From NCBI RefSeq assembly GCF_040581405.1, contig NZ_CP137157.1:1554001-1618000 (forward strand): a stretch of DNA of 64,000 nucleotides. The letters run 5' to 3'. Shown in pieces: positions 14,442 to 16,472 of this stretch. The stretch comes from Komagataeibacter sucrofermentans DSM 15973. Lineage in GTDB: Bacteria > Pseudomonadota > Alphaproteobacteria > Acetobacterales > Acetobacteraceae. Position 1 is the first letter of the stretch; each line of letters begins with the position of its first letter. Under the pieces are notes generated by a model, which was not told the DNA's origin, ran no database searches, and saw nothing but the letters and a program-made list of their open reading frames with translations. Position numbers and translations under genes: made by a program.

Positions 14442-14888
14442 TTACTTCACGCTGGCCGGGGTCGATTTGGGAAACATCATGTTTTTCAGCCCATCAAGGG
14501 TGGCAGGCAGGTCACGACTGCCTGCGGGCGCGCCATTTTCACGCAGCATGAACGCCAGCAGATCCGCATTCTGCGCGGGTGTCAGCGTGCCGGGCGCAAA
14601 AAGCGGCATGGCTTTTGCCATGTAGTCAAATAGCTGGCTCAACGGCGCCCCCGCCCAGTTGGCGGCAAAACGCCCTACAAGCGGCGGCACATCAAACGCC
14701 CCGCCCAGATCCGCCCCATGGCACACCGCGCAGGACTGCTGGTAGGTCGCAGCCCCCCGCTCGGCCTGTGCCGTCGTGTAATACGACATGGCGGCACGTG
14801 CAGGCGCTGCCTGGGCCACCTGCACTGTCAGGGCCAGCAGCCCGGCCCCCAGCGCGGCACCGCGCGCCTTTGCCTGTAGGCCGCGCAT
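14442..14888 (-). CDS. Periplasmic c-type cytochrome partner of the DAO-like protein
   Basis: A 148-residue monohaem cytochrome. A signal peptide covers about 1-32. The haem site CAVCH is at about 53-57 in GAATYQQSCAVCHGADLGG, and a likely axial methionine lies in AKAMPLFAPG near 90. The ATG overlaps the stop of the preceding flavoprotein gene (TGATG at 14888), so the two are translationally coupled. Its probable role is to take electrons from that flavoprotein in the periplasm and pass them to a quinol or terminal oxidase; this is inferred from the coupling. Confidence 0.9.
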   Translation of the reverse strand: MRGLQAKARGAALGAGLLALTVQVAQAAPARAAMSYYTTAQAERGAATYQQSCAVCHGADLGGAFDVPPLVGRFAANWAGAPLSQLFDYMAKAMPLFAPGTLTPAQNADLLAFMLRENGAPAGSRDLPATLDGLKNMMFPKSTPASVK

Positions 14889-16171
14889 CAGCCCTGCACC
14901 GCCGGGAAACGGGCGAAGAGGTTTTCAAATATGCCAATCGCCTTTTCCGCCTCGCTGCGGTCGGCATGTTCAAAACTGCTGCCCACACCATCCATTTCGC
15001 CCAGCCCCGACATGTCAAAACCCTGTATCATCAACCCGTCACTTTTCGAAAGCGCCGAGGCCCCCTTGTACCGCACCCCATACGTCACATCCGGCTGCGG
15101 CGGCAGCCACGCGGTCTGGCCACGCACGGGAATGAGCGAACGGTCCCCCCACAGGTCACGCGCCGCATAGCCGGGGCAATTGATGATGACAGGCTCGGGC
15201 AGGCTCTTCATGTCAGCAGGCGTATGGAACTCGCGGATAACGATCCGCCCCCCCGCCTGATAGAACTCGGACAGCAGCAGATGCCCATATGCCCCGAAAT
15301 TGAAGATCATGAGCGGCGTGCGCCGGGCATAGGGTACCGAAAAAGGATTTTCCTGCGCTGAAAGCAGCTCGGAGGCAGGAATGATATCGCGTATCCGCTC
15401 GCCATAACTGGCAAATTCGCTTGATTGCTGCGGCATGCCGGTCGTGGCGTAATCGCCCTTGCCGGCCGGATTTTCCGGCTCGGTTTCCGGCGCGTCAAAA
15501 GGCGTATCGGACAGGGCATAGCTGTCACGGAAATCGATCGGGTTGCCGGGCAGGCCGAGGTAATCACGGTAGCTTTTCCATGAATAACGGGCCATCCGCT
15601 CCCATGTATCGGCAAATTGCGGGCCTGCGGGGGCGGTCAGCGCCACGCGTGAATCCGGTGTCCAGCTACCATTGGCCCGGACCGAGCGGGTATGGGGCAG
15701 AAGGTCACGCGTATAGATCGTGACATCGAGCCCCGCGCGCTGCGCCGTGAGCGCCGTGGTCAGGCCAATGACCCCGCACCCCACCACCGCAATGCGCCGG
15801 GGCGACAGGGCGGCCGCCTTGCCCACCGCCATCTCGGCCGAGCCCCATGAAAGTGACCACCCGCTGCCGCCATGGCCATAATTATGGATGACAATCTTCT
15901 CGCCCACCCGCTCGACATCAAGCCGCGGGCCTGCCGCGCGGAACGGGCGCAGGCAGACCTTGATATCGGTTATCTGGTCGGCATGGGGGCGCATGGGCAC
16001 AAGCCGGGGCACCGTGCCGGGCACCGCCGTGCGGTGCAGGGCCGCCGCCGCGGCAGGCACGGACGCCCACCGGCCACCAGCCAGCGCACCAAGGGCGAGG
16101 GAGCCGGCAAACAGCCCCCTCCGGCCCAGGCGGGAGGGCATGTTTTTCAGGTCGTCAGGAAAACCGTTCAC
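14888..16171 (-). CDS. Tat-exported DAO-family flavoprotein with permuted motif order
   Basis: A 427-residue flavoprotein of the D-amino-acid oxidase family. The GTG at 16171 is preceded by AGAGG at a good distance. A Tat-type signal (GRRGLFAG at 16-23, then a hydrophobic stretch) indicates folded export. The order of motifs is odd. LRPFRAAGPRL (74-84) and IHNYGHGGSG (95-104), which in DAO enzymes lie at the C-terminal end and hold the substrate arginine and the flavin loop, come before the FAD-binding VVGCGVIG (129-136) that normally starts the protein. The C-terminus ends after the segment that precedes LRPFR in ordinary DAO. This is a circular permutation. A cytochrome c gene is coupled downstream, so it probably works as a dehydrogenase. 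Confidence 0.88.
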   Translation of the reverse strand: MNGFPDDLKNMPSRLGRRGLFAGSLALGALAGGRWASVPAAAAALHRTAVPGTVPRLVPMRPHADQITDIKVCLRPFRAAGPRLDVERVGEKIVIHNYGHGGSGWSLSWGSAEMAVGKAAALSPRRIAVVGCGVIGLTTALTAQRAGLDVTIYTRDLLPHTRSVRANGSWTPDSRVALTAPAGPQFADTWERMARYSWKSYRDYLGLPGNPIDFRDSYALSDTPFDAPETEPENPAGKGDYATTGMPQQSSEFASYGERIRDIIPASELLSAQENPFSVPYARRTPLMIFNFGAYGHLLLSEFYQAGGRIVIREFHTPADMKSLPEPVIINCPGYAARDLWGDRSLIPVRGQTAWLPPQPDVTYGVRYKGASALSKSDGLMIQGFDMSGLGEMDGVGSSFEHADRSEAEKAIGIFENLFARFPAVQG

Positions 16172-16472
16172 GTTCAAACCTCTGCTTGCCGGGTGCCTGT
16201 CACGAAAAATCCACGCGTTTCATGACAGGATCATTCATGCAAATCCGTTTTGGAAATATTCTGTATGCCGCTTTTTCAAATCCGCCATCATGGCCTGATA
16301 CATGCACGATGCGGCAGAGTAAATTTTCCCTGTCCCGCCGTCAAACCAGAGCCGGACAAAAACGCGCCCGGCACTCATTACGTCATGCAGGCACAGGTAA
16401 TGGATATGGTTGCGTGATTACTAATATTATGGCATTTTATATATGTTGAATATAATATTAAGGATTTAAGTA
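16172..16472. promoter_or_regulatory. Divergent promoter region, AT-rich on the right
   Basis: The 301-base gap separates the DAO-like operon (minus) from the unknown gene at 16473 (plus). The last 60 bases are AT-rich and end with an AAGGATTTAAGTA ribosome site for the right-hand gene. I see no clear operator palindrome. Confidence 0.45.

Follow-up and report, generated by a model that had tools for sequence, protein, structure and literature searches.

The window, that is, the whole 64,000-nucleotide stretch of Komagataeibacter sucrofermentans DSM 15973 DNA that was analysed, carries on its minus strand an open reading frame for an FAD flavoprotein (14888–16171) and another for a cytochrome c (14442–14888). 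These coordinates agree with the original prediction, and so does the proposed TGATG coupling of the two genes, in which the flavoprotein stop and the cytochrome start have base 14888 in common. Residues of the flavoprotein, P0001, are counted here from the TTG at 16177, and D-amino-acid oxidase and D-aspartate oxidase are abbreviated as DAO and DASPO. The features of the locus are the following.

14888–16171, minus strand: gene of the permuted DAO-like flavoprotein, an open reading frame starting with GTG at 16171 (alternative starts TTG 16177 and ATG 16141)
16040–16171, minus strand: putative twin-arginine (Tat) signal region, with the RR codons at 16118–16123 (SRLGRRGLFAG) and then an Ala-rich cleavage region
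15806–15970, minus strand: relocated segment, residues 70–124, equivalent to the DAO C-terminus (LRPFR...HNYGHGG...WGSA), located by phmmer and by PF01266 profile positions 294–350
15938–15949, minus strand: RPFR, residues 77–80, invariant in 73 of 73 relatives, with Arg77 placed by alignments as the equivalent of pig DAO Arg283
15866–15886, minus strand: HNYGHGG motif, residues 98–104, without variation in the His, the Tyr or any of the glycines among the 73 relatives aligned (73 of 73)
15764–15787, minus strand: VVGCGVIG, the FAD dinucleotide-binding motif, which ordinary DAO has at its N-terminus, located by sequence, profile and phmmer
14891–15805, minus strand: equivalent of DAO residues 1–269, residues 125–429, located by VIA-align to 1kif and by PF01266 positions 1–299
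14442–14888, minus strand: monohaem cytochrome c with a signal peptide, TGATG-coupled, matching PF13442 with 48.1 bits (cut-off 27)
14718–14732, minus strand: haem-binding CAVCH, from the sequence

The GTG at 16171 is likely to be the start codon of the flavoprotein gene. It is favoured because an AGAGG Shine–Dalgarno sequence (16179–16183) lies 7 nt 5' of it and because the alternative ATG at 16141 is replaced by ACG in a relative from K. xylinus (L036, 96% identical). Export of the flavoprotein by the Tat pathway, as proposed earlier, is supported by its N-terminal signal motif; a simple pattern search found a twin arginine in 78 of the 82 relatives scanned and a lipobox-like Cys after it in about half of them.

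The segments of the flavoprotein do not stand in the canonical N-to-C order of the DAO fold. LRPFRAAGPRL (76–86) comes first, then IHNYGHGGSG (97–106) and only then the GxGxxG dinucleotide motif VVGCGVIG (131–138), each in one copy, which bears out the original reading that C-terminal DAO motifs precede the N-terminal FAD motif. The first ~55 mature residues correspond to the C-terminal end of DAO and DASPO, and the remainder to their residues 1–269. The HNYGHGG signature of the DAO family, which we take to be the PROSITE pattern PS00677, is satisfied by VIHNYGHGGSGWSLSWGSA, and its core is invariant in all 73 aligned relatives. The original prediction had allowed that a second, C-terminal copy might have been missed; a search found none in the flavoprotein or in the 82 relatives scanned, and an ordinary DAO with an overlooked C-terminal motif was ruled out by the single motif copies throughout. 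A duplicated intermediate with two motif copies, of the sort that would hint at how the permutation arose, was likewise not seen among the relatives.

The same arrangement appears in profile comparisons. The flavoprotein scores 76 bits against PF01266 (curated profile cut-off 27.9), a profile matched by 73 of 73 relatives as well. In the native order only profile positions 1–299 are covered, by residues 127–425, and an own-genome profile search matched positions 294–350 upstream, in the N-terminal part. When phmmer was run against solved structures, DAO and DASPO were aligned in two to three pieces in swapped order, and the N-terminal piece matched 7ct4 325–370 (domain i-E 3.7e-7), 6rkf 282–330 and pig DAO 283–326. 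Shifting residues 70–124 (TDIKVCLRPF...AAAL) to the C-terminus changes this picture: PF01266 is then matched as a single stretch over positions 1–350 of 353 with 86.5 bits, as against 73.4 bits over 1–299 in the native order, and the DAO of R. emersonii (Rasamsonia) is aligned in one stretch (25–369) instead of in pieces. As a control on the rotation, a family profile of 68 sequences was cut at 33 places, every 12 columns and including the native order, and each version was scored against the Rasamsonia DAO. The best single alignment peaked at 105.4 bits when the cut lay immediately ahead of the FAD strand, compared with 50.9 for the native order. We take the one-piece matches after rotation, together with this optimum, to show at the level of sequence a circular permutation of the DAO fold with two defined breakpoints, namely, the loop before the RPxR strand, which is the new N-terminus, and the junction of the last helix with the FAD strand, which forms a short linker. 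The permuted architecture first proposed therefore stands, with its segments present once each and swapped, a full-length alignment after rotation and an optimum at the proposed cut. Because the segment order is permuted, the protein belongs to a permuted branch of the DAO family and is not an ordinary member. Chance is excluded because of the N-terminal match to 7ct4, the match to PF01266 1–299 and the conservation of the order in 85 loci. That the order might instead reflect a frame error, a misassembly or a missed C-terminal motif in an ordinary DAO has next to no probability, given that the reading frame is intact, that each motif occurs once, that those 85 loci, which come from many genomes, all show this order, and that the rotation test has a clean optimum.

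An AlphaFold model built from 68 relatives has a pLDDT of 90.6 and a pTM of 0.88, with only the signal region poor, and it supports an overall DAO fold. The superposition on pig DAO envisaged in the original prediction bore the fold out for residues 115–411, which fit residues 1–269 of 1kif with Z 19.6, an rmsd of 2.7 and 21% identity (VIA-align). The top structural match is human DASPO (Z 20.7), with model residues 113–411 laid on residues 1–269 of DASPO and of pig and human DAO. In the model, the N-terminal piece consists of strands 59–68, 76–79 and 82–86 and a helix 98–110, and runs directly into the FAD strand 116–120. Modelled alone, the relocated segment gave a weak and uninformative prediction (pLDDT 73.6), for which Foldseek returned nothing significant, a DAO (3wgt_A) appearing at E 4.9.

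Eleven positions in the relocated segment show no variation in the alignment (73 of 73 sequences): Arg77, Arg80, His98, Tyr100, Gly101, His102, Gly103, Gly104, Gly106, Trp111 and Gly112. In phmmer and profile alignments Arg77 falls on pig DAO Arg283, the arginine that binds the substrate carboxylate. The active-site Tyr228 of the pig enzyme aligns with Ser374, in a register less certain than that of the other residues; a Tyr is found at this position in 11 of 73 sequences, and Tyr366 (66 of 73) and Tyr370 (54 of 73) are conserved nearby. With a Ser in place of the canonical Tyr, the substrate or specificity of the permuted enzyme may differ from that of ordinary DAO. This exchange, shared by the window protein and most relatives, is one reason to weigh a reading in which the permuted fold acts on something other than a free D-amino acid, such as an N-substituted amino acid, an opine, a small D-peptide or another amine acid, with cytochrome c still as the acceptor. 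Flavin opine dehydrogenase, the glycine and sarcosine oxidases and related enzymes also have the same fold. Their Z values are lower, however: DAO and DASPO match best in both structure and sequence (Z 18–21, as against ~15 for the sarcosine and glycine oxidases), and the Arg–HNYGHGG set typical of them is invariant. We regard such a substrate as a minority reading that nevertheless deserves to be kept in mind, and a D-amino acid as the preferred one.

The original prediction presented the flavoprotein as an oddity. Its permutation held up, while its singularity did not, as bacterial relatives with this rearrangement are widespread. In the taxonomic family of the window, strong full-length matches were found in 8 of 150 genomes, the window genome included, and 15 of 299 Pseudomonadota genomes in a phylum sample (~5%) match at E 1e-20. 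The best 80 relatives from a scan of species genomes come from Acetobacteraceae, Sphingomonadales, Caulobacterales, Bradyrhizobium, Azospirillaceae, Xanthomonadales, Burkholderiales, Acidobacteriota and Opitutaceae, and a plasmid collection added Kozakia, Niveispirillum, Rhizobium, Bradyrhizobium and Nonomuraea (Actinomycetota). The homologues with the same domain order, for which the original prediction proposed a search, proved to be the rule: all 85 related loci examined, from Pseudomonadota, Acidobacteriota, Verrucomicrobiota and Actinomycetota, are permuted, the distance from HNYGHGG to the FAD strand is nearly always 35–39 residues, and none has the motif twice. At five of these loci a strict pattern missed the second motif, and the tblastn match extends through it. 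Presence is patchy, two further genomes of the same genus as the window being devoid of a permuted DAO. Deposited annotation describes family members merely as 'FAD-dependent oxidoreductase'. The phmmer comparison with solved structures turned up none that has the permuted order, and a search of the open-access literature yielded no description of this family.

More distant permuted relatives (~26% identical) in Bradyrhizobium, Rhizobium and Nonomuraea (L033 4935–5987, L034 4920–5981 and L035 4854–6017) have no Tat signal. In the two rhizobia the gene has an FAD-binding oxidoreductase on one side and a thiamine-pyrophosphate enzyme on the other; this conserved context is a different one and perhaps a biosynthetic operon. 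At three further places (L137, L138 and G389:C2:795706–796683) the permuted DAO has an internal stop codon or is split into two matches, which suggests gene decay or, for G389, divergence in the middle of the gene.

The class I domain of the partner cytochrome contains a single CxxCH and is preceded by a signal-like N-terminal stretch. The downstream cytochrome c that the original prediction proposed to look for among homologues was found in one clade and not in the family as a whole. Only the nearest relatives have an adjacent cytochrome c like that of the window, and most of the family have none, so cytochrome c is not a universal acceptor and the other members must use another. In a maximum-likelihood tree the coupled members, from Acetobacteraceae and Sphingomonadales, form a single clade (16 of 16, support 100/99), and the trait needs one change, against a mean of 14.8 with shuffled labels. 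Of the loci, 13 were checked for spacing, and in these the cytochrome gene begins either in overlap with the flavoprotein stop or at most 11 nt from it. This single coupled clade and the tight spacing are strong evidence that the flavoprotein and cytochrome c form a stable functional pair within it. A different view of the pair would make the permuted protein a true oxidase, reducing O2 to H2O2 in the periplasm, with the cytochrome c an independent partner that, for example, handles peroxide or serves another respiratory step. The nearest solved relatives are indeed oxidases, and the lack of an adjacent cytochrome c in most family members agrees with this view. Against it, the cytochrome is translationally coupled across the whole clade in both Acetobacteraceae and Sphingomonadales, and the sphingomonad locus L045 has a gene run in which both a flavin amine oxidase and the permuted DAO have a cytochrome c directly after them (amine oxidase, cytochrome c, permuted DAO, cytochrome c, the middle two overlapping as TGATG). 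We therefore hold a true oxidase to be improbable, clearly more so than the alternative substrates considered above, and prefer a dehydrogenase that is served by its own cytochrome.

Genes within 6 kb of the permuted DAO genes offer some indication of substrate. They encode imine deaminases of the RidA type that have a signal-like N-terminus (8 loci), beta-lactamase-family hydrolases resembling AmpH and D-aminopeptidase (7 loci), DadA-like D-amino acid dehydrogenases (3 loci, in Kozakia and Gluconobacter), an amidohydrolase nearest to PRK09061, which we take to be D-glutamate deacylase (3 loci), flavin amine oxidases (3 loci) and TonB receptors (11 loci). At a background of ~1.3 RidA and ~1.3 beta-lactamase-family genes per Mb, ~1.2 of each would be expected in 80 stretches and 7–8 were seen, a rough count in which the loci are phylogenetically non-independent. 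These enrichments are modest, and the context supports D-amino acid oxidation without proving it. The neighbours at some loci, TonB receptors and hydrolases without a known substrate, would suit a substrate other than a free D-amino acid, whereas the DadA-, RidA-, D-acylase- and D-aminopeptidase-like neighbours speak against one.

Several of these surroundings are distinctive in themselves. A flavin amine oxidase with a small adjacent cytochrome c lies near the permuted DAO at L045 (3769–7560), L044 (7261–13235) and L048 (3250–7182). A hybrid histidine kinase and a response regulator stand beside the permuted DAO–cytochrome pair in the sphingomonad loci L042, L043 and L045 (~0.7–1.1 kb after the flavoprotein) and in L044, where they may possibly regulate it. 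On a Kozakia plasmid (L031 223–11039) serine hydrolases, a DadA-like dehydrogenase, an alpha/beta hydrolase, the permuted DAO, cytochrome c, a CocE/NonD hydrolase and a TonB receptor make up a cluster that resembles a catabolic island, its substrate perhaps being a compound that contains D-amino acids. A conserved exported protein of ~490 residues (PWxRGFVVxxYEYAFRYGG) is encoded near the permuted DAO at L069 (2620–4110, minus strand) and L047 (5619–7082); the L069 protein has no match in Pfam or NCBIfam.

We consider it reasonably probable that the window encodes a naturally permuted, Tat-exported periplasmic D-amino-acid dehydrogenase of the DAO fold that passes electrons to its own cytochrome c; the invariant catalytic residues and the neighbouring genes are in keeping with such an activity, and its substrate, electron acceptor and physiological role are inferred. 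In this enzyme the C-terminal segment of DAO, comprising the strand with the carboxylate Arg, the HNYGHGG flavin and substrate loop and the last helix, is linked ahead of the FAD dinucleotide-binding strand, and the new termini fall in what is, in ordinary DAO, the loop that leads from the helix near residue 269 to the RPxR strand. The Tat system would export the folded protein with FAD bound. Judging from homology, Arg77 and the HNYGHGG loop would hold a D-amino acid or a close relative, whose hydride would pass to FAD, leaving an imino acid product in the periplasm; hydrolysis of the imino acid may be assisted by RidA in some lineages. The coupling of the genes suggests that the reduced FAD would be re-oxidized by the co-translated monohaem cytochrome c, with transfer to the respiratory chain. 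A broader and more tentative scenario, which we put forward as rather less than an even prospect, is that an ancient permutation founded a separate and mostly exported D-amino-acid dehydrogenase family across several phyla, that cytochrome c joined it in one clade, and that in some sphingomonads it sits with a flavin amine oxidase that has its own cytochrome c, and with the imine deaminase RidA, so that amino acids of both enantiomeric forms would be respired by one periplasmic pathway.

One would not expect an entire FAD oxidoreductase fold to be circularly permuted in nature, yet this rearrangement is what characterizes the family. With the active-site HNYGHGG loop now N-terminal and right before the FAD strand, these proteins offer a natural experiment on folding, on flavin loading before Tat export and on the control of oxidase versus dehydrogenase activity in DAO enzymes; if the proposed function is true, they also provide a route by which D-amino acids are respired in the periplasm through a cytochrome. 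The permuted, exported and cytochrome-coupled form is a variant of known fold and chemistry. It shares with DAO (1kif, 2du8, 1c0k and 7ct4) and DASPO (6rkf and 9vpf) the FAD Rossmann motif, the carboxylate Arg, the HNYGHGG loop, the fold of residues 1–269 and, when rotated, the whole of PF01266; it differs from them in the swapped segments, the Tat signal, the Tyr-to-Ser exchange and the cytochrome c partner, and its nearest solved match is ~20% identical. DadA has the canonical segment order, lies on the cytoplasmic side and is quinone-linked. With DadA (PRK00711) and the dye-linked D-amino acid dehydrogenases the flavoprotein has its likely chemistry in common, the oxidation of D-amino acids into the respiratory chain. 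Its score against PRK00711 is 28.7 bits, where the cut-off is 383, and the family scores rule out an ordinary DadA or glycine oxidase. The gluconate, fructose and 2-ketogluconate dehydrogenases of acetic acid bacteria have a GMC-type flavoprotein, a triheme cytochrome and a small subunit. In these, too, an exported flavoprotein delivers electrons to a co-encoded cytochrome c, whereas the permuted pair has a DAO fold and one haem; flavoprotein–cytochrome c dehydrogenase complexes of these bacteria are the topic of PMC9692623. A natural circular permutation in an extracytosolic flavoprotein has been recognized from predicted models in the FMN-bind1 proteins (PMC11334425), yet FMN-bind1 is an unrelated small FMN-binding domain, while the protein described here is an FAD oxidoreductase of the DAO type.
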